DNA of 64,000 nucleotides from Candidatus Caenarcanales bacterium (GCA_020050435.1 JAGVKQ010000020.1:62001-126000), one strand, 5' to 3'; counted from the stretch's first letter, positions 9,049 through 37,056 are shown. Notes: generated by a model from the letters alone, not told the origin. A program made the numbers and translations.

Positions 9049-10013
9049 CCGGTGGATTAGGATTTATAGGATCAAATTTTATCAGAGAGATTTTATCTTC
9101 TAATAGCGATATCTTTGTAACAAATATAGATGCACAAACCTATGCAGGAAATCCAGAAAATTTAAAAGATATAGAAAACAATAAAAATTATCAATATTTC
9201 AAAGGGGAAATCCAAAATTATAATTTCATAGATAATTTAGTTAAGAAATACAAACCTAATGCCATTATTAATTTTGCCGCTGAAACTCATGTGGACAGGA
9301 GCATACAGTCTGCTGATCCATTTATAGAAACAAATATTATCGGCACACATGTTTTACTTAAAGTTGCATTAAAAAACAAACTCCAAAAATATATTCAAAT
9401 TAGCACTGATGAAGTTTATGGCTCTATAAAACCTCCAGATAGATTTAATGAGGATTCTCAAATTAAGCCAAACAGCCCTTATTCAGCCAGTAAAGCCAGT
9501 GCAGATATGCTAGTCAGATCTTACAATAAAACTTATGGTTTAAATACAATAATCATAAGATGTTCTAACAATTTCGGACCATATCAATTCCCTGAAAAAG
9601 TTATTCCATACTTCATTTCATTAGCTCTAGAAAATAATAAAGTACCTGTATATGGAGATGGTTTAAATGTAAGAGACTGGATTTATGTTACTGATTTTTG
9701 CTCTGCTATATCTTTAGTTCTCGAAAAAGGTAAAATCGGAGATGTTTATAATGTAGGAAGTGACTGCGAATTAAAGAACATAGACCTCACTAAAATGATA
9801 TTAAAGAGATTGGGAAAAGATGAAAGTCTTATTCAGTATGTAGAAGATAGACTAGGGCATGACAGAAGATATGCCATGGATTCCAGCAAAATCCAGAAAG
9901 AGCTAGACTGGAAGAAAAAATGTAATTTTGAAGAGGCTCTGGATTTAACAATTGAATGGTATAAAAAAAACCAAATGTGGATTGAAAAAAGTACTAACCT
10001 TTCTTCGCTTTAG
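9033..10013 (+). CDS. rmlB: dTDP-glucose 4,6-dehydratase
   Basis: This 326-residue extended short-chain dehydrogenase has an N-terminal Rossmann motif TGGLGFIGSNF, the catalytic STDEVYGS segment (Thr-Asp-Glu) and the YSASK active-site pair near residue 150. The segments HVDRSI and RLGHDRRYAMD are diagnostic of RmlB. It converts dTDP-glucose to dTDP-4-keto-6-deoxyglucose using bound NAD. Together with the overlapping rmlA-like gene it starts a deoxysugar branch; no rmlC or rmlD is visible nearby, so the final sugar need not be rhamnose. A WecE-like aminotransferase that could use this product lies at 33775-34963 but is frameshifted. Its 3' end overlaps the convergent YfhO-like gene by 20 bp. 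Confidence 0.92.
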   Translation: MHVFVTGGLGFIGSNFIREILSSNSDIFVTNIDAQTYAGNPENLKDIENNKNYQYFKGEIQNYNFIDNLVKKYKPNAIINFAAETHVDRSIQSADPFIETNIIGTHVLLKVALKNKLQKYIQISTDEVYGSIKPPDRFNEDSQIKPNSPYSASKASADMLVRSYNKTYGLNTIIIRCSNNFGPYQFPEKVIPYFISLALENNKVPVYGDGLNVRDWIYVTDFCSAISLVLEKGKIGDVYNVGSDCELKNIDLTKMILKRLGKDESLIQYVEDRLGHDRRYAMDSSKIQKELDWKKKCNFEEALDLTIEWYKKNQMWIEKSTNLSSL

Positions 10014-12852
10014 ATTTCATTAAAAGATAAATAGATAAAAGGATTAAAGTCACTACACTCATGCAGCTTATTAAAGCTCCAGTATAAAAGTTCTTTGGAT
10101 AATAATAATATTCCACTATATACTCTCCAGCAGATGGAAGCAGGACCCCTGACTGTATAAAGTTTGCCTTTAGCAGTGTATGCTCTTTCTTATTTACTTT
10201 AACTTTCCAGTTATTATTAAAATTATTTCCAAGAACTAATATCCCTCCTCTGCTTGTATTCACTTTTAGAGTAATGTTTTCATCTTCATATTTTTGAAAA
10301 CTAATCTTATTGCCTGGATTAATCTTCTCAAGATTCAAACTATCCAGCTGATTTTTAATTGATTTATCTATGGAGTTAAATACAACTTCATCTCTAGGAT
10401 TAAAATTATCGCTATCAATATAAGATATAAGTTCAGATTTATTAGAAATGGTTTTATAATTACTCACTAAAAAGGCCCTTGGTAAATAATTTTTATTAAC
10501 CCATACCTTGCTATCTCCATCAAAGACTTTTATAGCCTGGTCAGACTCTAAAGAAAAGTCTGGAGAAGTTATAAAGTACTTTACATTTAACAAATCAAAC
10601 ACTTTGTCTTTATACTCAGTCGTGGGATATAACAAATTTGAATTTCTATAAAAAGACGGTTGAAAGTTTGTATAAAGTTGTTTAGAGTCTTTAAGTTTGG
10701 TATAAACAAAAGTCCAATATAGATCTTTGGGTAAAAAAGAAGCATAGCCATTTACATCTTCTATTTTATAAGTCCAAAGATTATTTGGCTTTATAGAGGT
10801 GGGTTTTAAGGCAAAACCAGTATTATACGGGTTTTCTACACTTAAGACACGAAAAGGCTCTTTAGAATTATTTTTTTCATTAGTTAAATATTCTAGAGCT
10901 CCACCTTTATAAATAGGCTTATAATCATTTCTATCTGACCATGTTAAGTAAAAAGAAGAAAAATGTATTAAATCAATAGAACTAATCAATATAACAATTA
11001 TAGTAAAAATGGTTTTTTGTTTATTAGTCGCTTTAGGAAATAAAGTAACTAAATTCATAAACCCTATACCCACTAAAAATGGAATACAATACGAGTATAT
11101 TTCTATAAATCTAGAGTTCTGTAAAAGATTAAATCCTGGAATAATATTTTGAATAACTGAGTAAAAATCAGCATTTGCTGCACATAAAAAAGAAAAAATA
11201 ATGACTGTATAGAGAAAAATAACTAATTTATTTTTAAATAGTTCTCTTGCACTCAATAATGATATTAAAAAGGGTAAAAATCCAAAATACAGATAGTTTT
11301 TAAAAAACATTGTTTTATATTTCATATATTCAGGATCTAAGCTATATCTATCAGTAATTTGCCAGGTTATTCCACCTTTATAATAGGGATATATAAGACC
11401 TTTTAATGCAGACAAAGAGACACAATTTGCTTTAAGCAGGTCATAAGAAGCTGGCAATCTATGTGAATCAGAAAGTGTAGGGAAAAAATGAAAAAGAACT
11501 ATCGCCCCAACCCCAAAACCAAAGATTAATATAAAGCAAAGAGCTAAGCAATGTTTCAAAATTTTTTCTTTTAGAGTTTTAGGATCAACCAAAAATTTAA
11601 ATATCCCATAAAATAGAAAAAACAAGATTGAGTAATAAACAACTTGTAGATGTCCCGATAAAAGAAGTATTCCAAATAAAAAAGCAGCAAAAGTTAAATT
11701 AAGATTTAGAATGTTGGCATTTTTTAAATATTTATCATAGGCTAAAAATAAAAAAGGGATAATAGCGAAACTCATAATGGTGTGCTCATAGCCAAACCAC
11801 ACAACCATATAGGGGTTAAAAGCATAAACTAAAGAAACTAGAAGTGAAGCATAGACATCAATACCCCAAGATCTAGACAACTTGTAAGAACCAAAGATAC
11901 AGAGAAAGAAGAAAATAATAAGAATAATTGAATGAGCTGTAAAATGATCAAATAAAAAGTAAGAAAGAAAATAAATAGGGTTATAGTATCCAACCTGAGG
12001 CTCTGCAATAAATTCAGTTCCACTTAAGATATATTTGTTCCAAAAAGGGATCTTTCCTTTTTTTATGCTTTCAGAGAAGAACTCTCGAGCAGGAGTAAAC
12101 CATACTATTAAGTCTTCTACAAACTGGTTATGCAGGGTTCTAGGATAAATATTAGAGAAGTCTTCCGCTATTATTTTTAAATTATTTAACAATAAAAGAG
12201 AGGCAACTTTATTTTTATTAACAGTGACGATAATTAAATCAAGGTCTTTGAGTTTTTCAAATGATCCTAATTTATCAAGAATAAAATTTAGATTTACTTT
12301 GCCGTAAAGCCATTTAGACTGAGAGTCTCCATAGCACTCTTTATGATCAAGAGGGAAAGCAGAAAATGGCAAGTTTGTTATGTTTTTATTTATATCAGTA
12401 GTATAAATTGCAAAGTCTATATGTCTGTCCTTTTCAAGAGAAGGTAAGAATTCAAAATATAAATAGTAATTAAAATCATTTCTAATAGGTACATTTATGA
12501 GCTTTGTGAAATCAGGTTTAAGTCTAATTTCATACCTACCATCAGGCTCTAGAGTGAGTTTGTATACATTTTTTCCTTTTTCAATTCTAGATTCAGTAAT
12601 AAAGTTATTTTGATCAAGATTAACTAGAGACAGGTCCCTTTTTATAACTTTTTTATCAATAGAATGGTATTTCCATGGGTAATTATAATAATTCCTAATA
12701 TCAATAGGGCTTTCAACTTTACCGCAAAAAGCAGGAAAAAAAAACCATATAGTAAGAATTAAAGCAAATAAAGAAATAATTATGTTTTCGCTTAGAGGTG
12801 TCTTGCTTTCCACCTGCTCTACTTGAACTTTACTCTTTTTCTTCTTGTTCAT
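9994..12852 (-). CDS. YfhO-family large membrane protein
   Basis: The protein is 952 residues. A cytoplasmic lysine-rich start is followed by one hydrophobic segment, an extracytoplasmic domain of ~200 residues, about a dozen membrane segments, and a C-terminal soluble domain ending with a last hydrophobic helix and a KSKAKKG tail. The GTEFIAEPQVGYYNPIYFLSY segment and the C-terminal sequence NFNNNWKVKVNKKEHTLLKA are hallmarks of the bacterial YfhO/GT-C-like family, which transfers sugars from lipid carriers to wall or lipid acceptors. The ATG at 12850-12852 faces the divergent methyltransferase gene. Its end overlaps rmlB by 20 bp. Confidence 0.82.
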   Translation of the reverse strand: MNKKKKSKVQVEQVESKTPLSENIIISLFALILTIWFFFPAFCGKVESPIDIRNYYNYPWKYHSIDKKVIKRDLSLVNLDQNNFITESRIEKGKNVYKLTLEPDGRYEIRLKPDFTKLINVPIRNDFNYYLYFEFLPSLEKDRHIDFAIYTTDINKNITNLPFSAFPLDHKECYGDSQSKWLYGKVNLNFILDKLGSFEKLKDLDLIIVTVNKNKVASLLLLNNLKIIAEDFSNIYPRTLHNQFVEDLIVWFTPAREFFSESIKKGKIPFWNKYILSGTEFIAEPQVGYYNPIYFLSYFLFDHFTAHSIILIIFFFLCIFGSYKLSRSWGIDVYASLLVSLVYAFNPYMVVWFGYEHTIMSFAIIPFLFLAYDKYLKNANILNLNLTFAAFLFGILLLSGHLQVVYYSILFFLFYGIFKFLVDPKTLKEKILKHCLALCFILIFGFGVGAIVLFHFFPTLSDSHRLPASYDLLKANCVSLSALKGLIYPYYKGGITWQITDRYSLDPEYMKYKTMFFKNYLYFGFLPFLISLLSARELFKNKLVIFLYTVIIFSFLCAANADFYSVIQNIIPGFNLLQNSRFIEIYSYCIPFLVGIGFMNLVTLFPKATNKQKTIFTIIVILISSIDLIHFSSFYLTWSDRNDYKPIYKGGALEYLTNEKNNSKEPFRVLSVENPYNTGFALKPTSIKPNNLWTYKIEDVNGYASFLPKDLYWTFVYTKLKDSKQLYTNFQPSFYRNSNLLYPTTEYKDKVFDLLNVKYFITSPDFSLESDQAIKVFDGDSKVWVNKNYLPRAFLVSNYKTISNKSELISYIDSDNFNPRDEVVFNSIDKSIKNQLDSLNLEKINPGNKISFQKYEDENITLKVNTSRGGILVLGNNFNNNWKVKVNKKEHTLLKANFIQSGVLLPSAGEYIVEYYYYPKNFYTGALISCMSVVTLILLSIYLLMKSKAKKG

Positions 12853-13964: not shown

Positions 13965-15707
13965 ATGAAAATACTCTCTATTTCTACTGAACAGGACGCT
14001 GGAGCAGCCATAAACATAGATGGGAAGATTGTCGCTGCTGCAAATGAAGAAAGATTTAATAGAAAAAAACTATTTATTGGTTTTCCTGAAATTTCAATAA
14101 AAGAAGTATGTAAAAAAGTTTCTTTAAGTTTTAATGATTTTGATTACATCGCAGTATCTACACTTAATCATATTCCGTCTCTGGATTATAAAAATCTTGC
14201 TTTTCATCAAGTTATAGGGGAAAAATTATCAAGAATTAGTCCCATACAAAAAGCACTACAAACAGTAGGCTTTACAGAGTTTGTTAAAAATTCTTATAGC
14301 ATTATTCAAGGGTTTTATAGAAATAAAGTGGTTAAACAGCTTAGGGAGCTAGGGTTTAAACAAAAAGTTTATTTTATAGATCACCACACATGTCATGGTT
14401 ATGCGGCTTACAATACATCAGGGTTTGATGATTGTTTAGTTATTACTTTAGATGGTGCTGGTGATGGCTATTGTTCTAAGGTTTTTATACCTGAAAATTA
14501 CAAACTCCACAATGTTCACAAAATACCTTTTTATGGCTCTCCTGGATATTATTATTCATATGCTACAAATATTTGTGGTTTTAAGTATGGTAGAGAAGGA
14601 AAATTAACAGGACTCGCTGCATTTGGTAATCCTGAAAAAACAAAAAAGATTTTTGCCAGCAGAGTTAATTATGATCCTAAAAAAATGATTTTTGTTAATT
14701 ATGGTCACTATTTTAACAGTGAAATAAAGTTTCTTCAAAAGGCTTTATCAGGCTTTTCTAAAGAAGATATTGCTGCAGGAATACAAACTCATACAGAAGA
14801 AATAGTAACTTCCTACATAAGTGACTTAGTCAAAAAATTCAATAAAACAAAAATAGCTCTATGTGGTGGAGTCTTTGCAAATGTAAAATTAAATCAAAGA
14901 ATTAGTGAAATAGAAAATATAAAAGAGCTTTATGTACATCCTCATATGGGTGACGGTGGGCTAGCTGTGGGAGCATCTTTTGCTCTTCTTGATCAAATGA
15001 ATCAAATTATTAAGCCTTATTTCCTAGAAACTGCGTATTTAGGTCCTGAATATTCTGATGAAGAGATTATGAAAGAACTTGAAACTTCTAGGTGTAGTTT
15101 TTATAAAAGTGAAAATGTTAGCTCGGTCATGGCTAAAGCAATTAGTGAAGGAAAAGTAGTAGCTTACTTCAATGGTGCTATGGAATATGGTCCTAGAGCC
15201 TTAGGAAATAGAAGTATTTTTGTAAGTGCTAAAGATCCTCATATTAATCAGTCCTTAAATGATAGATTGGAAAGATCAGAGTTTATGCCGTTTGCACCAA
15301 TCATAATGAAAGAAAAAGAAAATGATTATTTTAAGAATCTAGATTCAAAGCATAAATGTAATAGATTTATGACTATAACCACTGATGTAAAAGAAAAGGC
15401 TAAAAGTGATATACCAGCAGCTGTTCACATAGATGGTACAGCTAGATTTCAATCAATAACAAAAGAACAAAATTCTGTCGTTTATAAAATGCTCCAAATA
15501 CATGAAGAGCTAACTGGTGTGCCGGCGGTGATAAACACTAGCTTTAATATGCATGAAGAGCCTATAGTAGAGTCTCCTAAACAAGCCATAGACTGCTTTC
15601 TTAGAGGGCATTTAGATGTACTAGTCATTGGAAATTATGTCGCAGAAAAGATCCAGACAGATGCAAAAGATTTAGAAAAGAATACTCTGGTCTCCAACAA
15701 AACATGA
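13965..15707 (+). CDS. Carbamoyltransferase, NodU/TobZ family
   Basis: This 580-residue protein matches the two-domain NodU/CmcH/TobZ family. The Kae1-like N-terminal domain has DAGAAINIDGKIVAAANEERFNR, the metal-binding DHHTCHGYAAY, TGLAAFGNP and LCGGVFANVKLNQR. The C-terminal YrdC-like part has MEYGPRALGNRSI and VINTSFNMHEEPIV. Such enzymes make carbamoyl-adenylate from carbamoyl phosphate and ATP and pass the carbamoyl group to a hydroxyl of a sugar or antibiotic. It overlaps the following membrane-protein gene by 4 bp (ATGA), so the two are translationally coupled. A second family member lies at 27702-29501. Confidence 0.9.
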   Translation: MKILSISTEQDAGAAINIDGKIVAAANEERFNRKKLFIGFPEISIKEVCKKVSLSFNDFDYIAVSTLNHIPSLDYKNLAFHQVIGEKLSRISPIQKALQTVGFTEFVKNSYSIIQGFYRNKVVKQLRELGFKQKVYFIDHHTCHGYAAYNTSGFDDCLVITLDGAGDGYCSKVFIPENYKLHNVHKIPFYGSPGYYYSYATNICGFKYGREGKLTGLAAFGNPEKTKKIFASRVNYDPKKMIFVNYGHYFNSEIKFLQKALSGFSKEDIAAGIQTHTEEIVTSYISDLVKKFNKTKIALCGGVFANVKLNQRISEIENIKELYVHPHMGDGGLAVGASFALLDQMNQIIKPYFLETAYLGPEYSDEEIMKELETSRCSFYKSENVSSVMAKAISEGKVVAYFNGAMEYGPRALGNRSIFVSAKDPHINQSLNDRLERSEFMPFAPIIMKEKENDYFKNLDSKHKCNRFMTITTDVKEKAKSDIPAAVHIDGTARFQSITKEQNSVVYKMLQIHEELTGVPAVINTSFNMHEEPIVESPKQAIDCFLRGHLDVLVIGNYVAEKIQTDAKDLEKNTLVSNKT

Positions 15708-17905
15708 TAGACAATTTTTCCTTACAAGTTATTCTTTCCATAATATTTCTTAGTATAATAACTTTTTTTGGTTATCTATTTTCAAATAGAGTTTTAAAAG
15801 AGAATAATCCAATTTCATTAATTCCAATATCTGTAACTTTTGGGTGTTCATTATTTATTTTTCTTCTTCACTTTATATCTTTAGTCCTCGGAGTACAGAC
15901 TGCTACTTATATTTCTATTGGGACTTTTATCTTAGGAATAATTTACATTTCACTTTCAGTAAAGCCATTAATACTGGAAAGCGCTCTCAATAAAAGAGAA
16001 AGTGTAATTATATTTTGCTTATCAGCTTTTTTATTTTTACTTTGCCTGTCTTATCTTATATATTTCAACACATTTGACCCTCTGTATCATAATGCAGCTA
16101 CTTTAATCAAACAAAAATCATACCCACCATTCAATCCATATAATTCTGAAACTTTAAGTTCTTACCACTACGGGTTAATACTTTTAGCATCATCATTAGC
16201 TATCTTTTCAAATATAGATGTTTGGAATTCCTTTATACCTATTCAACTTTTATTTATAGTAACTATACCTTTATCTATTTTTTCATTAGTTTATTTCATA
16301 AGAAGAAAATTTAATGAAGCTTTTTTTGCGGCTTTAATAGGATGTTTTTGTGCTAATTTAAACTCCCCATTACTTATAAAACACTTATCAATTCTCATTT
16401 TCCATGGCTTTGACTATAAAATATATAATAAAATCATAGGAATAGCTGATAGTACTTTTGCCACTAACACTTGTAGATCATTAGCTTCACCTAATATGTG
16501 CCTTGCTACTCAAATGACTATGGTTTTATTTTATCTCTCTCTATCATTTGCATTTAACAAATTAAATAAAGACTTAATTGTCAGATTATTTACTATTTTT
16601 ATAATCTCAGCAACATTCTTTTTTATTTATGAATCCTTCTGGGTAGTACCTGTAATAGGTAGTTTACTTTATCATTTAATAACTGTTCTGAATGGTAACA
16701 ATAGGATTCAAGCAGTGAAAACTTTTATTTCACTTTTTATTATATTTTCTACTAGCCCTTTTATTACAGGAGGAATATTAAATAATGGGGAAAAGAGTTC
16801 TTTAAGTTTAGTTTACATAAATCCAAAGAATTTTCTCACGTGCTGTGCATATAATCCTGGATTTAAGCCATCAAAAGAATGGACAGACAATCATATGGTC
16901 TTAGAAAATTCCACTGGGGGTGTATATTTCAAAGTTAAGCCTTCTGACTGGAAATTTTATAATGACTTAGGATTACCATTTATATGTCTTCCATTCGTTT
17001 TATTTTGGATTATAAAACAAAGAAGTACAGGATTATTAGCTTTAGCTATATCAGGTATTTTTATGCTTTTAGTACCTTTTTTTATTAGTTTTCAATTAAG
17101 AGAAGTAGAACTTATTAGGTTTCCCACATGTGCCAGATTTATTTTTTCTGTTTTATTCGGATCATTTTTAGGATTTTATATTAATAAATATAGTAAAAGC
17201 TGGATTTTTAAATCTATGGTTTTAGGTTTAATTTTTACATTGATTTCTCCTGTAATAATATGGCTTTTACCTCACCAATTTAAGTCAAAAGATTGGAGAT
17301 ATACACACATTCCAAAGATTCATAAAAAGGCCATTAAGTGGCTTTCAAAAAAAGTAGAATTAGGTGATAAAGGTATAGGACCTTTTGATTTTCCCTGCTT
17401 TTATTATGACTTAATAACTACAGCAGGAGTATATGGTATTAGTACTTCTGAGACAGGTGGTTTTATAGTAGAAAAAGAAACAAGAAAAACAGCACTTAAA
17501 TTAATAGACCCCTGCTTATTTAGAGAATTAAAAGCAAAATGGCTATATGTAAATAAGGACGTGAGCTCTTTAATTACTAAAGAAAATTTAAATAAGGCTA
17601 TTAAAAGTAAGATGCTAGTTTTAAGATACAGGGACACCAACAGTACTGACTTTGTCGAGATTTATGAACATATTCCTAATTATGCTGATAATAATTGTTC
17701 AAATAAAGCTTACAATTGGGCAGTAGGTAGAATTTACATGGGTACATTTTTTCCATTGCAAAACAATTTAACAAAAGAAAAGATAGTTTTTACGAACAAA
17801 GAAAATGCTAAGGAATTTTTAAGAGAGTATATAAAATCTTTAGATAAAAGAGAAAAGTACTGGTATAGAATAGAGGCTATACCTTTAGAAACAAATGGGA
17901 AATAA
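15704..17905 (+). CDS. Polytopic membrane protein, third member of the YHYG paralogue family
   Basis: The protein is 733 residues. About a dozen hydrophobic segments occupy the first ~500 residues, with a soluble C-terminal region after that. YHYG sits at residue 154, exactly as in 1872-4181, after the loop FDPLYHNAATLIKQKSYPPF. The C-terminal segment IDPCLFRELKAKWLYVNKD aligns with LDLSLVKELKIKWLYLDPE in 1-1830. The start overlaps the carbamoyltransferase stop by 4 bp, and the GT4 gene begins 11 bp before its end. This suggests one operon in which a carbamoylated sugar is processed and transferred at the membrane. Confidence 0.77.
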   Translation: MIDNFSLQVILSIIFLSIITFFGYLFSNRVLKENNPISLIPISVTFGCSLFIFLLHFISLVLGVQTATYISIGTFILGIIYISLSVKPLILESALNKRESVIIFCLSAFLFLLCLSYLIYFNTFDPLYHNAATLIKQKSYPPFNPYNSETLSSYHYGLILLASSLAIFSNIDVWNSFIPIQLLFIVTIPLSIFSLVYFIRRKFNEAFFAALIGCFCANLNSPLLIKHLSILIFHGFDYKIYNKIIGIADSTFATNTCRSLASPNMCLATQMTMVLFYLSLSFAFNKLNKDLIVRLFTIFIISATFFFIYESFWVVPVIGSLLYHLITVLNGNNRIQAVKTFISLFIIFSTSPFITGGILNNGEKSSLSLVYINPKNFLTCCAYNPGFKPSKEWTDNHMVLENSTGGVYFKVKPSDWKFYNDLGLPFICLPFVLFWIIKQRSTGLLALAISGIFMLLVPFFISFQLREVELIRFPTCARFIFSVLFGSFLGFYINKYSKSWIFKSMVLGLIFTLISPVIIWLLPHQFKSKDWRYTHIPKIHKKAIKWLSKKVELGDKGIGPFDFPCFYYDLITTAGVYGISTSETGGFIVEKETRKTALKLIDPCLFRELKAKWLYVNKDVSSLITKENLNKAIKSKMLVLRYRDTNSTDFVEIYEHIPNYADNNCSNKAYNWAVGRIYMGTFFPLQNNLTKEKIVFTNKENAKEFLREYIKSLDKREKYWYRIEAIPLETNGK

Positions 17906-23457: not shown

Positions 23458-24117
23458 TCAATTTTCAGTAACATACTTAGAAAATTCAGGATAGACAACA
23501 GAATCTTTATCAAACTCTTTTTGCTTATCCACAAAAAGAGTGAATTCAAAAGGCATGTAGTCATTTCTAAGAACAATTTTATTCGAATATTTATATGCTA
23601 GTTCTACAATTTTCACTGGATCACTATGATAAGTATCTTCCAACGTATAATCAACCCTATTAGAAAGAAAATTTAAAGCAAATCCTTTTAAAGAATATTC
23701 ATTATATAGTTCAAAAGTTTTCTCAATAAAACTCCAATTGTCTTTTATCTTAAAATTATGAACTCCTGATGAGAGGATATAATCATATTTCCGACTTAAA
23801 CCACTCTCAAGAGCATCCCTAAATTCTAGATTTGCATCTGGATAGTCTTTCTTTCCTTCCAGAATTAATTCTTTATTCAAATCAACACCATAGTACTCAA
23901 TCTTCAGTCCTAAATTTTTTGCATAATTATACATATCACCAAAACCACATCCAAAATCTAAAACGCTTTTATTCTCCAGATTCCATTGAGTTAATAAAAT
24001 ATGATATCTAAGCTCATGCTTACCCTTCGTCCAGCCAAGAGTATCATTGCTATGACCATACTTTTTAAAGCGATCATTATAACTTTCAATCAATAGTTCT
24101 TTATCTTCTTTATCCAT
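23458..24117 (-). CDS. Class I methyltransferase
   Basis: The 219-residue protein has motif I VLDFGCGFGDMY near residue 55 and the acidic YGVDLNKELI after it. The N-terminus YNDRFKKYGHSNDTLGWTKGKHELR precedes the fold and is typical of small cluster methyltransferases. Its start lies 3 nt from the stop of the amidohydrolase gene and its end 16 nt before the next methyltransferase, so the three are co-transcribed. No acceptor can be named. Confidence 0.8.
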   Translation of the reverse strand: MDKEDKELLIESYNDRFKKYGHSNDTLGWTKGKHELRYHILLTQWNLENKSVLDFGCGFGDMYNYAKNLGLKIEYYGVDLNKELILEGKKDYPDANLEFRDALESGLSRKYDYILSSGVHNFKIKDNWSFIEKTFELYNEYSLKGFALNFLSNRVDYTLEDTYHSDPVKIVELAYKYSNKIVLRNDYMPFEFTLFVDKQKEFDKDSVVYPEFSKYVTEN

Positions 24118-24119: not shown

Positions 24120-24899
24120 TTAATCAGCAATATTGAAAAAGTTTATTAGATTTTTATATCCAATATTTTCTTTTTTTTCTATCAGTAAGTCTTGTGTTAG
24201 ATCTTCAAATCTTTCTCTAAGAATTTTATGAGAAAATTCAGGATGATCAGTTCCAAGACAAATTCTCCTATCTAAATTTTTAAACAAATATTTAATATCC
24301 AAATCTAGTGAACTCCCTTGATATTTCATTATAGTAAATGAAAGGTCTAAAACAACATTAGGACTTCTTTTAACAAGCTCTGCATATCGTAATAGATTCA
24401 CATCACCACCATGTAATAATAATACTTTAGTATCTTTTGATGATTTAAGTAGCTTAACCAAAGAATATAAAGGGTCACTTTCTGGATACCGCTCTAAATT
24501 AGCATGAGAATAAGTACATAGGAAAACAACCAGATTTGATTCATTTGCAAATCGTAAAATATCTGGCAAAGTATCAAAATCCAAACCAATATTAGAGTTT
24601 CTAGGATGAATTTTTATGCCTTTAAAACCAAGCTTAGATAAAGTTATAATTTCTTTCTCAAGATCATCTACTTTTTGTTTAGGGTTCAATCCAGCAATTG
24701 GAATAAAACACTTATACTTACGACACTCTTTAATATATAAATTGTGGTCGTATTTTTCAACACCTTCTAAACCAACAGCACAAGCCCACTTAAAGCCAGT
24801 TTCTTTCATTCCAGAATAAGTAGAATCAAAGGTTGATAGCAAACCATTTAATGTACCACTAATAGTTGGATGAGTTAAAGAATCAAATAGGGGAATCAT
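24120..24899 (-). CDS. Amidohydrolase-superfamily (TIM-barrel) metal-dependent hydrolase
   Basis: The protein is 259 residues. It has GFKGIKIHPRNSN (strand 4 region), HANLERYPES, LLLHGGDVNLLRYAEL and LGTDHPEF, which carry the histidine and aspartate metal ligands of the amidohydrolase-2/TatD-like barrel. The usual N-terminal HxH is replaced by DSLTHPT, so the site may bind one metal or be altered. It overlaps the beta-propeller gene by 4 bp. Within a glycan cluster it may deacylate or hydrolyse a sugar or lactone, but the substrate is unknown. Confidence 0.7.
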   Translation of the reverse strand: MIPLFDSLTHPTISGTLNGLLSTFDSTYSGMKETGFKWACAVGLEGVEKYDHNLYIKECRKYKCFIPIAGLNPKQKVDDLEKEIITLSKLGFKGIKIHPRNSNIGLDFDTLPDILRFANESNLVVFLCTYSHANLERYPESDPLYSLVKLLKSSKDTKVLLLHGGDVNLLRYAELVKRSPNVVLDLSFTIMKYQGSSLDLDIKYLFKNLDRRICLGTDHPEFSHKILRERFEDLTQDLLIEKKENIGYKNLINFFNIAD

Positions 24900-27701: not shown

Positions 27702-29501
27702 ATGAATCAAACTAATTATGCTGTATTAGGTATTAGCTATGGATTAAACGATTCAGCAGCAGCATTAATTGTAAATGGAAAAGTCATTGCTTCTGCTGAA
27801 GAAGAAAGATTTAATCGAGAAAAACATACAAAGAAGTTTCCATTCCATTCAATTCAATACGTCTTAAATGAAGCTGGACTTTCTCTCAGTGAGATTACTG
27901 ATGTAGCCTATTATTGGAATACAAACGGACGTATATTAGAGAGAATATTATTGCATGGATACGAGCTTTTAATAAGAGTTTTTTCTCCTGTAAAATTCTT
28001 TAAATATCTCGCAGGATTGTTAAAAGATAGAGCTGGCTATGAGGTAAAAGACATGCTTTTCCCTCGAAAAACTCTCAAAAGGTTTTTTCCGGATCATAAA
28101 AGCAATTACAAACTAACAACTGAAAACCATCATGACACACATGCAGCTTGCACTTTTTTACAGTCTGGCTTTGATCGATCTGCAATTCTAATAATAGATG
28201 GTTCAGGGGAAATTGAATGTGTTTCTCTTTACTTTGGAGAAGGAAACAAAATCAATTTTATTGAATCTCAAAAACTGCCTCATTCCTTAGGTGTATTTTA
28301 TGGAGCAGTAACAGAATATTTAGGGTTTAAAAAATTTGATGCTGAATATAAAGTAATGGGCTTGGCATCATACGGTAAACCTTCTTATTACAACGATATG
28401 AAATCCATTTTAAGATACAATAACGGGATTAATTTTTCTTTAGATGATGACAGTTTTCAATTTCAATATGGAGAGGAAACTTGGTTTTCCAAAAAATTTA
28501 ACCTTCTTTTTGGTCCTAACAGAAAAGATGATGATTCTATTGAACAAAAACACATGGATATTGCTGCATCAGCACAACTTGTACTAGAAGAAATCCTGCT
28601 AGACATGTGCAAATATTCTCTAAACAAATTAAATGTTAACAAACTTTGTTTTGCTGGAGGTGTAGCTCTAAACTGTTCAGCAAATGGAAAGATTGCTGAC
28701 AAGTTGAACCTAGATGGTTTCTTTGTGCATCCTGCTTCTCATGATGGTGGAACTGCCTTAGGAGCGGCTCTGCTTGTTTCAAGCAGAAAATACAATAAGC
28801 AATTTGCTCCCGGAGAGTTACCTTATCTTGGACCAGCATATTCAAACGATGAAATTGAATCTGCTTTAAAAATAAATAGTAGTATAAAATATCATCTTAG
28901 TAAAAATATAGAATCTGAACTTGCCGAGCATATTTCTCAAGGGAAAGTATGTTGCCGATTTAATGGACGAATGGAATTAGGTCCTAGAGCTTTAGGAAAT
29001 AGAAGTATTCTTGCAAATCCCACTGATATCTCTATTAGAGATGTTATTAATATGAAAGTAAAGCTTAGAGAAGAATTTAGACCTTTTGCTCCATCATGTC
29101 TTATAGAAGATTTTGACACTTACTTCGAAGGAGTTAAAGATCCTTACATGGTTTTCACTCAAAAAGCAAAATCAATAACAAAAGAAAAATTACCAGCGAT
29201 TGTTCATGCAGATGGAACAGCAAGAGTACAAGTTGTAACTCCTGAGATTAACCCATCGTACTACAAGTTAATAACAGAAATAAAAAAACGTACAGGACAT
29301 GGAGTTGTATTAAATACCTCCTTTAATATTCAAGAACCTATTGTTTGTTCACCAAAAGATGCACTAAATACTTTTTGCATTAGCAATATGGATACTCTTG
29401 CAATTGGTGATTTTATTGTCGAACATGTTCAACAAAACCCTAAGATTTGTAACACAGAAATGTCATTTCACGATGATGGGCTGCTAAAGACTCAAAAGTA
29501 A
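27702..29501 (+). CDS. Carbamoyltransferase, NodU/TobZ family (second copy)
   Basis: The protein is 599 residues. Family motifs are NDSAAALIVNGKVIASAEEERFNREKH, the metal-binding ENHHDTHAACTF, VMGLASYGKP, FAGGVALNCSANGKI, and the C-terminal MELGPRALGNRSI and VVLNTSFNIQEPIV. It is clearly distinct in sequence from the 13965-15707 protein, so the two are likely to modify different acceptors. The last ~20 residues are coded in a region that also encodes, on the other strand, the end of the methyltransferase at 29440-30234 (62-bp convergent overlap). It is the third gene of the 25966-29501 operon. Confidence 0.9.
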   Translation: MNQTNYAVLGISYGLNDSAAALIVNGKVIASAEEERFNREKHTKKFPFHSIQYVLNEAGLSLSEITDVAYYWNTNGRILERILLHGYELLIRVFSPVKFFKYLAGLLKDRAGYEVKDMLFPRKTLKRFFPDHKSNYKLTTENHHDTHAACTFLQSGFDRSAILIIDGSGEIECVSLYFGEGNKINFIESQKLPHSLGVFYGAVTEYLGFKKFDAEYKVMGLASYGKPSYYNDMKSILRYNNGINFSLDDDSFQFQYGEETWFSKKFNLLFGPNRKDDDSIEQKHMDIAASAQLVLEEILLDMCKYSLNKLNVNKLCFAGGVALNCSANGKIADKLNLDGFFVHPASHDGGTALGAALLVSSRKYNKQFAPGELPYLGPAYSNDEIESALKINSSIKYHLSKNIESELAEHISQGKVCCRFNGRMELGPRALGNRSILANPTDISIRDVINMKVKLREEFRPFAPSCLIEDFDTYFEGVKDPYMVFTQKAKSITKEKLPAIVHADGTARVQVVTPEINPSYYKLITEIKKRTGHGVVLNTSFNIQEPIVCSPKDALNTFCISNMDTLAIGDFIVEHVQQNPKICNTEMSFHDDGLLKTQK

Positions 29502-30234
29502 AATCACCATAAACAGTAATATCCTTAAATCCTACATTTTCAAGCATTAACTGGAATTCATATAGAAAATACCATCTAATATTCATTTCTTGGATATAAG
29601 TATCAATTGGTTTTTCGCCATCAAACACCTCAAAACAATACCGCACTCGCTTTATCTGCTCTAAATGAAAATTTCTAACATTATCTGAAATAATAATTTT
29701 TTTACCATCTTCCAAATTAACTTCCTTGCAGTGTCTCCATTTATCTTGATCTTCCGCATATAGAGATAAAGACTGATACTTAGGGACAAAAAGTGAAATA
29801 ATAAGCTGACCTTTTTGTTTTAAGTGTTTAAAAAAACATTTAAGAGCCTGAAGTGCTTCGCTCCGATCCGAAACAATCATAAATGAGTGAAAAGGAACAT
29901 ATATATTATTGTACTTTTTTGAAATGTTAAAATCTTGCATAGGACTCTGATAAAGATCAGCACTCAAGTTAAGTTGTTTTAATTTATCTCGACAAATATT
30001 CAACATGTCATTAGAGTAATCCAAACCATCTAGTTCGAAATTCTCTCTCAATAAAGGAAGCAGTATTCGTCCAGTTCCACAGCCTACTTCTAAAGAGTTA
30101 CCACCTTGCCTTCTTAGAAGCTCCTTATAAAAAGATTCATCTCCACCAACAGACCCTTCTGGCCACCAAAGATCATAGATTTCTGCACCAAATCCATGGA
30201 AAGTTTTTTCTAAGGGCTTTTGTTGTTTGCTCAT
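29440..30234 (-). CDS. Class I SAM-dependent methyltransferase
   Basis: This is 264 residues. Motif I is SLEVGCGTGRILLPL near residue 48, followed by LDGLDYSNDMLNICRDKL and YNNIYVPFHSFMIVSD. The N-terminus (FHGFGAEIYDLWWPEG) and the length fit small-molecule methyltransferases of the type 25 group. It is the last of three tightly packed genes (ATP-grasp, unknown 718-residue protein, methyltransferase) with 16 nt to its upstream neighbour. Its end overlaps the convergent carbamoyltransferase by 62 bp. It probably methylates the product of the two upstream enzymes. Confidence 0.82.
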   Translation of the reverse strand: MSKQQKPLEKTFHGFGAEIYDLWWPEGSVGGDESFYKELLRRQGGNSLEVGCGTGRILLPLLRENFELDGLDYSNDMLNICRDKLKQLNLSADLYQSPMQDFNISKKYNNIYVPFHSFMIVSDRSEALQALKCFFKHLKQKGQLIISLFVPKYQSLSLYAEDQDKWRHCKEVNLEDGKKIIISDNVRNFHLEQIKRVRYCFEVFDGEKPIDTYIQEMNIRWYFLYEFQLMLENVGFKDITVYGDFTFESLAAHHREMTFLCYKS

Positions 30235-30250
30235 TTCAAGCTTAGTTTTT

Positions 30251-32407
30251 TTATTTATTCAACACTAAGGTAGATTCATTCCTAGAATTGTTTAGGGGTT
30301 CCATCTTGTCCCTCTTTGGCTCTAAATAAGCATCAAGGAATTCTTTGATTAGTTTACGATTTCCCCAGCAAGAATGTACTAATTTTTCAGTTAATTCAAA
30401 TGATGGCTGCTGGCAATTATCACCAGTTAAATAAATAGCAGTTATTTCATCTAACTGTTCAAACTGAATATCATCAAGGGGGAACTGAGTATATTTAGCC
30501 ATACTTTCTTCCTTTTCAGTTTTCATCCTATCTAATAAATCACCATCTGCCCAGTCAAGAAGTAAGAGCATGTTTTTAGCAAAATTAAACATGTTTGAAC
30601 CTTCTTCATAGGCTTCTTGTAAAAAGCTTCTCATCCCTTGTTTCTTAAAGCCATAACCTGCAAATTCAAGAAAAGTGTCTTTATCAAATCCTATTAGCTT
30701 TAATACATAAGCAATCTCAATCATTGAAAGTGTCCCTGCATCTAGTCTGGATAATAAGTACCCAGCAAGTGCAGTAGCTCCAGCTGGTTCTGGTTTCCGA
30801 GCATGAAGCATGACTTCTTTAATTATGTTTTTATTTATTGATTTTGTCTTCTTAAGCTGATCTAAATAGCGAAATAAATCTTCACCAAAGATTAATGCTT
30901 GAGCAAAAGGATTTATTGAGTGAGTAGAAACATGAAAAGCATCTTTACCTACAAAAGCTCCTCCATCTACTATACTATTTTTTAATATCTCAAAACAACG
31001 ATTTCCATTAGAGTAGGAACTAGATCCTAAGCCTACATAAGCAGTTCCTCTGCCAGAAGAATGATTTTCTACTACTACTCCTAATAGCTGTGCTAAAGAT
31101 TGTAAATTAGAAAGATCAAACACACCATGAATACGTGTTTTTAAATCACGCCCTAATTTATTTGAATCTAGGAATTTGCTAATTTCTGGAAAGAGGCTAT
31201 TTAACTCACTTCTTACACTGTCGTCTAACTCCATAGGATTTCGTAAAATACGATCTGCTAGAGCAATAGCTGCCAGAGCAGCGCCAATCGATGCCTGATT
31301 CCAGGTCGAAAGAGCTTTTCCCATATTATTTTGAAGAAATTGTTCTAATAAAATAAGGTAGGGGACCATAAGACCATAAATTCCACTTTCAACACCACGC
31401 TCAACAATGACTTTACCATCCTCAACATGGATACAAAGAGTATCAAAAGTACGTTTTACATTTTCATCTTTTAAAATCTCTGCAAGAGGTATTTTTTTCT
31501 CTTTTTCAATCAATTTTAAAGCAACAAAAATAAGATTTTGCATTTCATCCTTAGATTGTGGATTTGTTGGGAAAAAATAACCCCCAGTAAGCAGAGCATC
31601 AGACAATGCTCCTGGATCTCTTTGTTGGCGATTTATATATGTACGTAGCTTGGTAATTTGAGGCTGATCTTTTTCCAGCTCTCGCAAGAAAAAAGTTTTT
31701 TCCTTATTCATAAAATCTGCACGTTCATCAGGACACCAGATAACAAGACTACCCTCATTTTGATTCATCAAGTTAAATTCTTTATTTTTAAATTTCAATT
31801 TCTTTGCCTGCATAAGTCTAAGAACTTGGTGGCACGAAATCCCCATATTTGAGGAAGTAGAACAATATATTGTTTTTTTACTAAAGCATGACCAAATTGC
31901 AACTGTTTCATCATTTATTTGAAGTAGCTCAGATGCTTCAATTTTCTTCAGTTCTGAGGACGTAAATATTTTTTTACCTGAGTTAGATTCTCTTGATTTA
32001 AGAAATTCAAGTTTTAAGTTATTTAGATCTTTCGTGCTAAGCTTTTTCATCCGTTCTACTTCAAGTGAAATTTGCTCTGCCATTAAACCTAAAACATTAA
32101 AACCTTTGACACAACTTTCAAAATGCTTCCAGCCCCTCAAATAAACAATCTTCTTATTAACCAATGCTGTGGTAAGCGGAGCTTTAAACACTAAAGAATC
32201 AGAATCAGGACTATATGGGATTTCATTATCTTTTGCCTGGCTAGGAAGCAATATGTCTAATTCCATTGCTAACCTTACTGTAGATAGACCAATTTGCATT
32301 GCAGATGAATTGTTGTATTCTCTTCCTAGACCAACCTTTACTGTTTCTTCTTCTAGAAAATCTCCAGACAACTCAGGTATTTCTTTATGTAAATATGTAA
32401 GTTTCAT
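30251..32407 (-). CDS. Large protein of no recognised family, in an ATP-grasp/methyltransferase operon
   Basis: The protein is 718 residues, soluble, with no signal peptide or membrane segment. I recognise no known domain. Visible landmarks are a cysteine-containing stretch (YCSTSSNMGISCHQV, then VIWCPDERADF), an alanine-rich helical part in the middle (ASIGAALAAIALADRILRNP), and the glycine-rich segment GRGTAYVGLGSSSYSNGNR. The segments VDGGAFVGKDAFHVSTHSINPF and HARKPEPAGATALAGYLLSRLD follow. These dense conserved-looking motifs suggest an enzyme rather than a structural protein. It sits 9 nt after the ATP-grasp gene and 16 nt before the methyltransferase gene, so it is likely the central catalyst of that pathway. 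Confidence 0.8.
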   Translation of the reverse strand: MKLTYLHKEIPELSGDFLEEETVKVGLGREYNNSSAMQIGLSTVRLAMELDILLPSQAKDNEIPYSPDSDSLVFKAPLTTALVNKKIVYLRGWKHFESCVKGFNVLGLMAEQISLEVERMKKLSTKDLNNLKLEFLKSRESNSGKKIFTSSELKKIEASELLQINDETVAIWSCFSKKTIYCSTSSNMGISCHQVLRLMQAKKLKFKNKEFNLMNQNEGSLVIWCPDERADFMNKEKTFFLRELEKDQPQITKLRTYINRQQRDPGALSDALLTGGYFFPTNPQSKDEMQNLIFVALKLIEKEKKIPLAEILKDENVKRTFDTLCIHVEDGKVIVERGVESGIYGLMVPYLILLEQFLQNNMGKALSTWNQASIGAALAAIALADRILRNPMELDDSVRSELNSLFPEISKFLDSNKLGRDLKTRIHGVFDLSNLQSLAQLLGVVVENHSSGRGTAYVGLGSSSYSNGNRCFEILKNSIVDGGAFVGKDAFHVSTHSINPFAQALIFGEDLFRYLDQLKKTKSINKNIIKEVMLHARKPEPAGATALAGYLLSRLDAGTLSMIEIAYVLKLIGFDKDTFLEFAGYGFKKQGMRSFLQEAYEEGSNMFNFAKNMLLLLDWADGDLLDRMKTEKEESMAKYTQFPLDDIQFEQLDEITAIYLTGDNCQQPSFELTEKLVHSCWGNRKLIKEFLDAYLEPKRDKMEPLNNSRNESTLVLNK

Positions 32408-32416
32408 TAGTAACGC

Positions 32417-33643
32417 TCAATTTAGAGCTAATTTCCTTTCAAAATATTCTATCTGAACATAAGACTCTACCATTTTTTCCTTTTTCAAGACTTCATCTCT
32501 GTCACTTCCACATACAATAAAATATCCTGGTCTATCACGACTATCCCTTACAGGATTAATATTATCTCCTTCTTTAAGGTCAAGATTAAATATAAGGACA
32601 TTATCAAAAAGATTTTTATCTATATTCACCTTCTTAACTTTTCCAGGAGGGAAGTTAAAAAATTTAAGTACAGCATATTTTTTCTTATAATCTGCAACCT
32701 TAATTTCAAACGGAACTCCTGTCAATGTTTTTAAAAGGGCTTCAGTAGGATCAAATCCTGTAAGAAATGGAATTACACTGCTGCTTATACTTCCACCTGC
32801 ACCTCTTGCTGCAATTTCCATCAAATAAATACTTCCATCTTCTACTTTGTATTCTGCATGAGTATTACCAAACGGTAGTTCCAAAGCTTTAATTACCTTT
32901 GTGTTAACATCAAAAATCTTTTTTTCAAGTAATGGATCAATGTCACCTAAAAAAGTATTTCGCTCATCTAAGCAAGAGTTAGAATCATAGTGATATTTTT
33001 TAGTGAGAGTTAGATTATAAATCTTTCCATCTTTTACAAATGATTCTACAGAAAATTCAAATCCAGGAATATATCTCTCAATTATAATTCCTCTATCCAC
33101 ACTCTCTTTAAATGCATTTGCTATTAGTTGCTTGTATCTGTAATCTAGAATAGAAACACCTTTGCTACCTTGTGAATTAATAGGTTTTATTACATAGTCT
33201 GAAAACGTCGATAATCCACTGCAAAATTTCTCTGCTTCTAATTCTTCATCAAAGTAATAGCACTCAGGTATATGTTCATCTAATTTACCTTTAAGCGCCC
33301 TGCGCATAACATATTTATTGGTAAATTTTAAAGCTGTATTATAACCAATTCCCAACAACCCAAGTTTTTCAGCTATAAAAGCAACGGTAGGAACAGCTAC
33401 ATCAGTTTGATCTGTAACAATGTAGTCTATTTTATATTTTTCGGCACAGTTAAGTGTTTCCTGTTTGTTTGTGGTGTCAATTTGTTCATAATAGTCTGCA
33501 TATTGTTTACAAGGTGGGTTAACATTCATATCGGTTAGCAAAACTTTATAGCCCATTTGCTTTGCTTTTTTAATTAGTGGAATCTGATTAAAGCCACCAC
33601 CCAGAATATGAACTATCTTAGCTTTATTATTATGCTGTTTCAT
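32417..33643 (-). CDS. ATP-grasp carboxylate-amine/thiol ligase
   Basis: The 408-residue protein has an N-terminal Rossmann-like preATP-grasp part (ILGGGFNQIPLIKKAKQMGYKVLLTD). The ATP-grasp fold follows: VIKPINSQGSKGVSI (nucleotide-binding lysine and loop), IIERYIPGFEFSVESFV, and LMEIAARGAGGSISSSVIPF with the metal-binding glutamate. A C-terminal domain of ~100 residues ends the protein. The family activates a carboxylate as acyl phosphate and joins it to an amine. It is first in a three-gene operon with an unknown protein and a methyltransferase, with a 131-bp gap before it. The partners in the reaction are unknown. Confidence 0.87.
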   Translation of the reverse strand: MKQHNNKAKIVHILGGGFNQIPLIKKAKQMGYKVLLTDMNVNPPCKQYADYYEQIDTTNKQETLNCAEKYKIDYIVTDQTDVAVPTVAFIAEKLGLLGIGYNTALKFTNKYVMRRALKGKLDEHIPECYYFDEELEAEKFCSGLSTFSDYVIKPINSQGSKGVSILDYRYKQLIANAFKESVDRGIIIERYIPGFEFSVESFVKDGKIYNLTLTKKYHYDSNSCLDERNTFLGDIDPLLEKKIFDVNTKVIKALELPFGNTHAEYKVEDGSIYLMEIAARGAGGSISSSVIPFLTGFDPTEALLKTLTGVPFEIKVADYKKKYAVLKFFNFPPGKVKKVNIDKNLFDNVLIFNLDLKEGDNINPVRDSRDRPGYFIVCGSDRDEVLKKEKMVESYVQIEYFERKLALN

Positions 33644-33774: not shown

Positions 33775-34963
33775 TCATTCAGCTAAGGTATAGGCTAAGG
33801 TGTTTTCTTTCAGTTCTTGTTTTGATAAGTTTTCACTGTCAAAAAAGTTTTCTTTAATTTTACTAATAATTAATTCCTGACTTTCTTTACTAAGATTATT
33901 ATAAAAGGGCAAACGAACTAGTCTTGAAGCTACTGATTCTGTAATGGGTAAATCACCTTCTTTATAACCAAATCTTTCACCCATTGGAGAGGTGTGCAGA
34001 GGTACATAATGAAAAACACAATTTATAGATTGTCCTTTTAAATATTTAATCAAATTATCTCTATAATTTTCAGATTTCAATAAAATATAAAACATATGGC
34101 AGCTTGATTTGCAGTTATCTGGAATGACTGGAAGTTCAACACTATCAAAATTTAAAAATCCTGAGTGGTAGTTATTATAGATTTTTATTCTAATTTTATC
34201 TATTTCACCCATTTTTTCGAACTGTGCATAGAGAAATGCCGCCAATATATCAGACCGGTAAGTATGAGCTACCAATATCTACCCATGTATATTTATCTAC
34301 TTCACCTCTAAAGAACTTACTTCTATTAGTTCCTTTTTCTCTTATTATTTCTGCTCTTTCTATAAACTTTTCATTATTAATTACGAGTGCTCCACCTTCA
34401 CCACATATAACATTTTTAGTTTCATGAAAGCTGTAGCACCCTAAATCACCTATGGTCCCTAAATATTTTCCTTTATATTTAGCATTAACACCCTGAGCGG
34501 CATCTTCTACGACAAATAAATTATGTTTTTTAGCAATCTCCATAATTTTATCCATCTCACAGGAAACCCCTGCATAGTGAACGGGAACAATAGCTTTTGT
34601 TTTATTCGTAATTTTTTCTTCTATAAGATTTTCATCCATATTTTTAGTATCAGGTCTAATATCTACAAATACTGGTTTAGCTCCTCTTAAAATAAATGCA
34701 TTAGCTGTAGAAACAAAAGTAAAAGAAGGCATAATAACCTCATCACCTTCTTTTATATCTAAAAGTATGGCTGCCATCTCTAAAGCATGAGTACATGAAG
34801 TAGTAAGTAAAACTTTTCTAGCGGAGAATTTTTCTTCCATCAAACTATTACATAATTTTGTATATTTACCATCACCAGAAATATGCATATTAGAAATAGC
34901 ATCTTCAATATACTTAAACTCATTTCCTGTTAGATAAGGTTTATTAAATGGTATTTTTTTCAT
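33775..34963 (-). pseudogene. wecE: WecE-type dTDP-4-keto-6-deoxyhexose aminotransferase, interrupted by a 1-nt frameshift
   Basis: Two overlapping frames together make one DegT/DnrJ/EryC1-fold, PLP-dependent transaminase of about 396 residues. The N-terminal frame (34250-34963) has CTHALEMAA, VEDAAQGV and the PLP lysine in YSFHETKNV, and ends at VDIGSSYLPV. The other frame (33775 to about 34257) continues with SDILAAFLYAQFEKMG, which normally follows SSYLP directly. Removing one base from CCGG at 34255-34258 restores the frame, so there is a +1 insertion. This enzyme type aminates dTDP-4-keto-6-deoxyglucose or -galactose, the product of RmlB. It may be a true mutation, a sequencing or assembly error, or recoding. 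Confidence 0.85.
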
Positions 34964-35103: not shown

Positions 35104-37056
35104 TCACTCTAAACCTTCTAAAATATTTTTTGTTATTTCTTCTTCATTATTCATTTTCATACCAACAAAGAAATCTAAAGCAGATTTATATAGGGGTAAT
35201 GAGAAGCCTGCATCAGGATTTTTAACAATACCTAAAACAAAGTATTTCTTAGCTTTTTCTATATCTTTTATTTTATTAAAAAAATATCCTGCAAATAAAT
35301 ATCCATATGAAGATTCTGGAGTTAATTTTATATAGTTATCTATTATTTTTTCTGCTTCTACTGTATTCCCGGATTTTATAGCAATATCTATGAAATTAAT
35401 TGTATAAGAAGGTTTAAACTTAGGATTTTTTTCTATAGCTTTTTTATAATAATCCCAGGATAATTTCCAGTCTCCTATTTTATTAAAAAACATAGCTACT
35501 TCATAATATCCACCCCAGGAATTTTTAATAGTTAGAGCAGAATTAATAGCTATTTTTAATTTTTCAAAATCGCCTTGCAAATATAAATAATAAAAAATAA
35601 GTCTGTAAGTATTAAAATTGTATGTCATTTGCATAGGTCCATATTTTGTACTTAAGCCTGGTTTTACATATAAATACTTTTCAAGCCATTCTTTAATTTC
35701 TTGAGTTAAATACTCCTCAGTAATACTTTTTGGCAATTTAGAAGTGTCGCCAGCCTGTTTTAAAAGAGTAAAAATATACATAGGCTTATTCCATACAGGT
35801 GCTTCATTTGTTCTATAAATAAATTGGTTATAGTAATCTTTACTGGAGGGAATATAATAAGCTGTTCTGAAAAATAGAAAAATAAAAATCGGTACCAGTA
35901 AAAAAAAGAATACTTTTCTTATCTTTAAATTTTCAATACTAGAAATTAAACTTATTATAGAAAAAGTCAGCCCAATGCTGGGGAAATACACATATCTAAC
36001 TGCAGCGATAGAAAATAATGGAAATATTTGAATTAAAAGAACAATAGAAATAAAGAACCACCATATTCCTAGTGAAACATATGGATTCCTTTTAAAGTAA
36101 ACGATAGAAAATATTATTAGAAAGAGCACAACTATCTGAGAAAATAAACTATATGGATCTAAAATAGAGTCGCCGACCTTATACCACTCAGCAGCTGAGT
36201 CCATTAGTCCATAAGGGAAGAAATAAAGCTTAAAATAATGAATTATTAACTGGGGGGAAAACCAGAACATCCTAAATAAAATATCTTTTAGTCCTCCCGT
36301 TTCTGTCCAGCTCATAAGATCTTCAGAAATAGAAGTAGCATTAAACAATGAATCCCTACAGGCTATAAATCTAAGGATAAAATATATAGGTAAAACTATT
36401 AGAAAGGGTTGAAGTAAGAATAAGTATTTTTTACTAAAGATACTTTTTCCTTTTTTACAAAAACAAATTAATAGTAATAAAACTGGAAATAAAACGAATG
36501 TTTCACCAGTTAACAGTGCAAATAAAAGGAACAAATTACCTAAAATTAAATTTCTATTCTTATGCTCTAGGGTCTTAATTAACTCTAAGTAAAAAATTAT
36601 AAATAATAAGCAAAATGCATGTCCCATGACTCCAGCACCTACAAGTAATCTGGTAAACATTTGTAGATTAATAGGATGAATTATCCAAAACAAAACAGTT
36701 AAAACCGATAAAAGTTTATTTTCTGTTATTTTATAAAATAAAACTGTAGCTAATAATGTGACAAAAGTCTGTGCAAGAAATAAATAAAGGTGAAATCCAA
36801 AAGGGTAAGCATTTTTACCAAAGATTAAATGTATAAAAAAATACTGGAGATTATAAAAAGGTGAGAAATGAACTCCTCCTTCTGAGCTAAAAAACGATTT
36901 TATAACTAAGTTAAGATTTTTATATCTGGGTAAATCTACAAGAGAATCATCTTCCCAAACAGAACCAAAAAAAATGGTTTGAAAATAAATTAATATAAAT
37001 AAGATTACTGGTATGAGAAAGTACTTGTTTTTAAAAAAGGTAATTGTTTTATTCAT
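35104..37056 (-). CDS. Polytopic membrane protein with C-terminal TPR repeats
   Basis: The 650-residue protein starts with a hydrophobic helix followed by VWEDDSLVDLPRY, an acidic first loop like that of GT-C glycosyltransferases (TMTC/PMT-like). About eleven hydrophobic segments reach to residue ~400. After that a soluble part contains tetratricopeptide-like repeats, e.g. WKLSWDYYKKAIEKNPKFKPSY and IEKAKKYFVLGIVKNPDAG. The layout matches bacterial membrane O-glycosyltransferases with TPR tails. The gene follows no clear operon partner; the frameshifted aminotransferase begins 140 bp downstream of its end. Confidence 0.78.
   Translation of the reverse strand: MNKTITFFKNKYFLIPVILFILIYFQTIFFGSVWEDDSLVDLPRYKNLNLVIKSFFSSEGGVHFSPFYNLQYFFIHLIFGKNAYPFGFHLYLFLAQTFVTLLATVLFYKITENKLLSVLTVLFWIIHPINLQMFTRLLVGAGVMGHAFCLLFIIFYLELIKTLEHKNRNLILGNLFLLFALLTGETFVLFPVLLLLICFCKKGKSIFSKKYLFLLQPFLIVLPIYFILRFIACRDSLFNATSISEDLMSWTETGGLKDILFRMFWFSPQLIIHYFKLYFFPYGLMDSAAEWYKVGDSILDPYSLFSQIVVLFLIIFSIVYFKRNPYVSLGIWWFFISIVLLIQIFPLFSIAAVRYVYFPSIGLTFSIISLISSIENLKIRKVFFFLLVPIFIFLFFRTAYYIPSSKDYYNQFIYRTNEAPVWNKPMYIFTLLKQAGDTSKLPKSITEEYLTQEIKEWLEKYLYVKPGLSTKYGPMQMTYNFNTYRLIFYYLYLQGDFEKLKIAINSALTIKNSWGGYYEVAMFFNKIGDWKLSWDYYKKAIEKNPKFKPSYTINFIDIAIKSGNTVEAEKIIDNYIKLTPESSYGYLFAGYFFNKIKDIEKAKKYFVLGIVKNPDAGFSLPLYKSALDFFVGMKMNNEEEITKNILEGLE

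Follow-up and report, generated by a model that had tools for sequence, protein, structure and literature searches.

Fold-type II enzymes dependent on pyridoxal 5′-phosphate (PLP) perform β-elimination, β-replacement and related chemistry on amino acids. In a 64,000-nucleotide stretch of DNA from a Candidatus Caenarcanales bacterium (GCA_020050435.1, JAGVKQ010000020.1:62001-126000; hereafter the window), a gene for a 718-aa protein, most probably the representative of a new, rare, strongly diverged and insertion-rich family of such enzymes, lies between genes for an ATP-grasp ligase and a methyltransferase. Comparable gene sets have been described by comparative genomics: in operons that also encode PLP enzymes, oxygenases and amino-acid methylases, an ATP-grasp ligase, a modular synthetase or an acyl-CoA ligase can stand in for one another (PMC2922099). 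The action of ATP-grasp ligases after PLP or oxygenase steps is established for the phosphonoalamides (PMC11867202, which also covers the rhizocticin and plumbemycin ligases) and for E-64 (PMC12568646). The first-pass annotation of the window, which regarded its three genes as a pathway without a described prototype, was too strong in view of the operons containing PLP enzymes, oxygenases, methylases and ligases reported in PMC2922099. The likeness to these peptide and amide pathways independent of non-ribosomal peptide synthetases (PMC2922099, PMC11867202 and PMC12568646) is that a PLP or oxygenase step feeds an unusual acid or amino acid to an ATP-grasp ligase; the present locus differs in that the putative PLP enzyme belongs to an undescribed divergent family, and in that the genes are located in a surface-polysaccharide locus. 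No specific account of a gene set of this kind in O-antigen or Melainabacteria loci emerged from a search of the literature.

The 718-aa protein as a candidate PLP enzyme

The three genes are as follows:

32417-33643, minus strand: ATP-grasp carboxylate-amine ligase of 408 aa with a LAL_C2 domain (Pfam; relatives in the PDB), the conserved neighbour of the 718-aa gene
30251-32407, minus strand: 718-aa protein, proposed to be a divergent fold-type II PLP enzyme (PALP signal, hhalign, AlphaFold2 (AF2) model)
29440-30234, minus strand: 264-aa class I S-adenosylmethionine methyltransferase, third gene of the trio (Pfam PF13649, 1.1e-12)

These open reading frames (ORFs) and the short gaps between them, as given in the first-pass annotation, were confirmed, with 9 nt (32408-32416) separating the ATP-grasp and 718-aa genes and 16 nt (30235-30250) separating the latter from the methyltransferase gene, all on the minus strand. 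The 3′ end of the methyltransferase gene overlaps that of a convergent carbamoyltransferase gene (29440-29501). The 718-aa ORF, present as a single copy in its own genome, is a genuine gene: two sister genera share it at 82-83% identity, and the ratio of non-synonymous to synonymous substitutions (dN/dS) of ~0.1 indicates purifying selection.

The protein scored below every threshold of Pfam, NCBIfam and PHROG and had no significant sequence match in the PDB, in agreement with its initial description as an unrecognised enzyme. Relatives do exist, however, and the profile signal is that of the superfamily of PLP fold-type II enzymes. When the six known members were compared with 24,736 Pfam models by hmmscan, PALP (PF00291), the family of cysteine synthase, cystathionine β-synthase, threonine dehydratase, threonine synthase and D-cysteine desulfhydrase, was the sole family obtained at E≤10, the member from locus L011 matching it at E 0.025 (residues 172-253 to profile positions 52-132). 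The fold-type II pattern had been read from the invariant motifs and recorded before the profile tests, for which alignments of 25-36 diverse PALP proteins served as hhalign templates. Alignment of the 718-aa family with PALP proteins from related genomes gave a probability of 60% (P 8.5e-5), and with Escherichia coli PALP enzymes added the values were 58-76% (P 2.3e-5 to 1e-4). The match places residues 178-285 on CysK 63-149 and is centred on TSSNMG, corresponding to TSGNTG of CysK. Control comparisons gave far lower values: 0.1-0.3% for the reversed query, 0.1% for a deep alignment of short-chain dehydrogenases (Rossmann fold, similar depth), 0.3-0.4% for a deep alignment of fold-type I aminotransferases, and a top score of 24.7 (1.4%) among 100 column-shuffled templates as compared to 46.1 for PALP. 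Among 211 single-sequence templates the top five were all PALP proteins, above 168 unrelated proteins, the best of the latter scoring 23.9 and a PALP protein encoded in the same genome as the window 32.9. It is thus highly likely that the 718-aa protein belongs to the superfamily of tryptophan synthase β, cysteine synthase and threonine dehydratase.

Five motifs were assigned in the protein (coordinates are those of the window):

32105-32107, minus strand: K101 (SCVKGFN), proposed PLP Schiff-base lysine; invariant in six sequences, placed by alignment register
31841-31858, minus strand: T184-S-S-N-M-G189, proposed asparagine/substrate loop; core of the significant profile match
31016-31033, minus strand: G459-L-G-S-S-S464, proposed PLP phosphate loop; invariant in six sequences, assigned by eye
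30776-30790, minus strand: E540-P-A-G-A544, counterpart of EPSGA/EGAGA of threonine dehydratases; invariant, assigned by segment hhalign
30416-30427, minus strand: T661-G-D-N664, counterpart of SGGN/TGHG near the C-terminus; invariant, assigned by eye

All five can be read as landmarks of the superfamily in the proper sequence, with statistical support for the TSSNMG loop alone. The protein resembles PALP enzymes in the profile match of its asparagine loop and in the expected order of the candidate lysine, EPAGA and TGDN, and hhalign of the EPAGA segment alone placed it on TdcB 281-293, where TdcB reads EGAGA (P 0.007). Weak segment alignments (P 0.3-0.5, not significant alone) set K101 against CysK K42, TdcB K58 and IlvA K62, and K101 is the likely candidate for the PLP lysine. 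The protein differs from PALP enzymes in remaining below the Pfam cut-off, in a length of 718 aa with large insertions, in a distance of ~84 residues from K101 to the TSSN loop, in ~150 extra residues ahead of the proposed phosphate loop, and in the loop itself, which reads TSSNMG as compared to TSGNTG of cysteine synthase. Cysteines 99, 182, 225 and 471 are also invariant, the first two lying within the PLP-like motifs; a radical or iron-sulphur enzyme reading was dropped, as the four form no cluster motif.

Coupling of the 718-aa protein to carboxylate-activating ligases

Six of approximately 1,270 genomes searched with the 718-aa protein carry a homologue: that of the window, two of the same family within Candidatus Melainabacteria (loci L004 and L005; 82-83% identity), and three GC-rich genomes (72% GC, 7.6-9.5 Mb) from another phylum (loci L006, L011 and L012; 42-48% identity). 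No relative was found among viral contigs or in phage and plasmid collections, and a weak match from a class search (G223/L007) was discarded as a chance match to unrelated genes. The protein is rare and scattered, with copies of 42-48% identity shared by two distant lineages. The genome-contig scan, which looked for exact matches to peptides of the window protein, overlooked the genomes carrying L011 and L012; the true distribution is therefore wider than that seen here.

The assignment of the neighbouring gene to the ATP-grasp ligases was borne out by matches above the cut-offs to PF13535 (ATP-grasp_4; 2.2e-12, 47.3 bits, cut-off 27) and, in the C-terminal domain, to PF18603 (LAL_C2; 3e-9, 37.4 bits, cut-off 29.4). 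The nearest solved relatives are the L-amino acid ligase BL00235 (PDB 3vot) and 4dim; the similarity is remote (E 5e-9 and 2e-17), and their substrates are not transferable to a protein that is predicted to be an L-amino-acid-ligase-like, carboxylate-activating enzyme. The ATP-grasp gene (82-83% identity) lies immediately ahead of the 718-aa gene in L004 and L005, and an ATP-grasp gene of 25% identity comes immediately after it in L006. In L011 and L012 the 718-aa domain instead continues, at its C-terminal end, into a fused AMP-binding acyl (acyl-adenylate) ligase that is complete. An ATP-dependent, carboxylate-activating ligase is therefore coupled to the 718-aa protein in 6/6 loci and three lineages, as an ATP-grasp enzyme in four (the window included) and as a fusion in two, and the conserved unit is this pair and not the trio. 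Within the Melainabacteria loci both genes of the pair are conserved to the degree of nearby housekeeping genes (79-93%), as compared to 47-69% for the other genes of the wider cassette described below.

In both loci with the fusion an upstream gene of the glutamate dehydrogenase family (L011:11043-12326 and L012:10894-12168, minus strand) overlaps the fusion gene by 4 nt. Its product reads GGAAGG where E. coli GdhA reads GGGKGG, and its reaction is probably altered because the motif lysine is missing. Putative cyclase or arylformamidase-like genes are also located beside the fusion (L011:5915-6757 and L012:4511-5182).

Proposed function and alternative explanations

The genes surrounding the trio encode a nucleotidyl transferase, a sugar dehydratase/epimerase, glycosyltransferases, carbamoyltransferases, an aminotransferase and an asparagine-synthase-like protein, a content characteristic of a surface-glycan locus; carboxylate-amine ligation in a glycan-modification setting, as proposed at first pass, is supported. 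From the genes, their spacing and conservation, the ligase coupling and the superfamily signal we infer a PLP chemistry, a substrate, a product and a glycan link. The 718-aa enzyme, whose PLP lysine is likely to be K101, would generate a non-proteinogenic amino acid by β-elimination or β-replacement, and the ligase, be it the ATP-grasp enzyme of the window or the fused acyl-adenylate ligase of the other lineage, would join that amino acid or acid through an amide bond to another amino acid or an amino sugar. The oxygenase and methyltransferases encoded nearby may then tailor the product, which would be added to, or made together with, the surface glycan encoded around the 718-aa gene. That a PLP enzyme supplies the amino acid or acid for the ligase is suggested by the coupling, because the latter is constant. 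We assign a probability of roughly 0.5 to this scheme as a whole, a diverged PLP enzyme acting with an amide-forming ligase within a surface-glycan locus. More tentatively, and with the odds against it, the 718-aa proteins may constitute a new PLP fold-type II subfamily, doubled in size by insertions, which serves as a portable module for making and activating amino acids with interchangeable ligases, and which adds to surface glycans an amino-acid group of a kind not seen before. An unclassified protein has become a testable PLP-enzyme candidate with a named lysine, and the gene membership of the unit has been corrected. If the proposal is true, one of the oldest cofactor superfamilies reaches into a region unseen by current family models and is tied to amide-forming ligases in the surface-glycan loci of non-photosynthetic relatives of the cyanobacteria, about whose surface chemistry very little has been learned.

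A less probable competitor retains the fold and changes the product: the 718-aa protein would be a PLP fold-type II dehydratase or lyase yielding a 2-oxo or other acid, which the ligase would activate and an acyltransferase of the aminoglycoside-3-N-acetyltransferase (AAC(3)) type would transfer to the nitrogen of an amino sugar. AAC(3)-like (Antibiotic_NAT) genes do occur near the 718-aa gene in four of the six loci and in both lineages (L004:14156-14971, L005:5993-6790, L011:4831-5655 and L012:2232-3065), where they probably function in amino-sugar acylation rather than in resistance, and the fusion of the 718-aa domain to an acyl-adenylate/CoA ligase in two of these loci, the nearness of the EPAGA motif to threonine dehydratases and the glycan cluster of the window are all consistent with N-acylation. 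No AAC(3) homologue was present, however, among the window genes scanned, and the partner in four loci is an ATP-grasp enzyme, which would normally form the amide bond itself.

The assignment of the 718-aa protein to the PLP enzymes, on which both the preferred scheme and this competitor depend, has several observations weighing against it. Statistical support is limited to a first-domain segment (approximately residues 178-285), no member attained the PF00291 gathering cut-off of 35 bits (the best reaching 14.3 bits), and the protein is about twice the length of a usual fold-type II enzyme. The assignments of K101, the glycine loop and TGDN were made by register or by eye, without statistical support, and an ordered-motif regular expression composed by eye failed on known PALP proteins and was uninformative. 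An AF2 model built from six sequences reached a predicted local distance difference test score (pLDDT) of 67.5 and a predicted template modelling score (pTM) of 0.67, as compared to a pLDDT of 51.5 with four sequences. Foldseek found no match to this model in the PDB at E≤0.001, and while the recurrence of D-cysteine desulfhydrase, a fold-type II enzyme, among the weak matches (probability 0.25-0.47) speaks for the assignment, the same list includes subunits of the origin recognition complex and ferredoxin-NADP reductase. A reading as a NagB/RpiA/CoA-transferase (ribose-1,5-bisphosphate isomerase) derived from the low-confidence first model and was absent with the better one. It is conceivable, albeit unlikely, that the protein is no relative of PLP enzymes and adopts a new fold, one half of it Rossmann-like, and that the PALP signal reflects local convergence at a Ser/Asn-rich nucleotide- or phosphate-binding loop; this would accommodate a supported match of only ~85 of the 718 residues and the weak structural matches to several folds. 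Such an explanation sits poorly with PALP being the only Pfam family recovered, with the 0.1% obtained for a Rossmann-fold family of similar depth as compared to 60-76% for PALP, and with EPAGA and K101 occurring in the right order and register.

The first-pass suggestion that the three genes form a unit was not supported. Orthologues of the 264-aa methyltransferase are absent from all five further genomes with the 718-aa gene (the best matches elsewhere being generic methyltransferases of 22-31% identity), and none of its relatives is encoded near the 718-aa genes of these carriers. The slot after the 718-aa gene is occupied in one sister by a methyltransferase gene that is unrelated and in the second by a GH130-like gene, and only the ATP-grasp/718-aa pair recurs. 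A dedicated three-step pathway in which the trio would ligate, modify and methylate, favoured by the single strand and the gaps of 9 and 16 nt, is on account of these differences very improbable, and as a conserved unit is largely refuted.

Surrounding genes

A wider cassette of GH130-like, amidohydrolase-like, 2-oxoglutarate-oxygenase-like and glycosyltransferase genes is common to the three Melainabacteria loci; its members in the window, together with two further neighbours, are:

23458-24117, minus strand: 219-aa methyltransferase, of a family that recurs beside the 718-aa gene, unlike the 264-aa one
24120-24899, minus strand: amidohydrolase_2-like cassette member (PF04909), with homologues near the 718-aa gene in L004 and L005
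24896-25816, minus strand: GH130-like cassette member (PF04041), with homologues near the 718-aa gene in L004 and L005
25966-26934, plus strand: glycosyltransferase, cassette member, with homologues near the 718-aa gene in L004 and L005
26916-27698, plus strand: probable Fe(II)/2-oxoglutarate oxygenase, cassette member, with H155xD157...H213 invariant in three orthologues
27702-29501, plus strand: NodU-type carbamoyltransferase (PF02543, PF16861)

Homologues of the 219-aa methyltransferase are encoded two genes downstream of the 718-aa gene in L005 (60% identity) and by the gene preceding it in L006 (27%, E 1.7e-31). The carbamoyltransferase reported close by on the other strand was verified by its two Pfam domains. 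For the 2-oxoglutarate oxygenase-like gene the outcome was mixed: the HxD...H motif and further residues are invariant in three orthologues, the two from the sister loci being 54-59% identical, whereas no match was found in Pfam, NCBIfam or the PDB, and the protein probably represents an undescribed Fe(II)/2-oxoglutarate oxygenase family.

The gene for a DegT/StrS-type aminotransferase (33775-34963, minus strand) is split by a frameshift near 34250-34275, where a sister locus has a single 397-aa ORF (L017:18007-19200); this may be a sequencing error or a real disruption. Four proteins of 650-952 aa (1842-4181, 9994-12852, 15704-17905 and 35104-37056) had no Pfam match at E≤1e-4 and have paralogues in the sister loci, and those inspected resemble multi-spanning membrane proteins.

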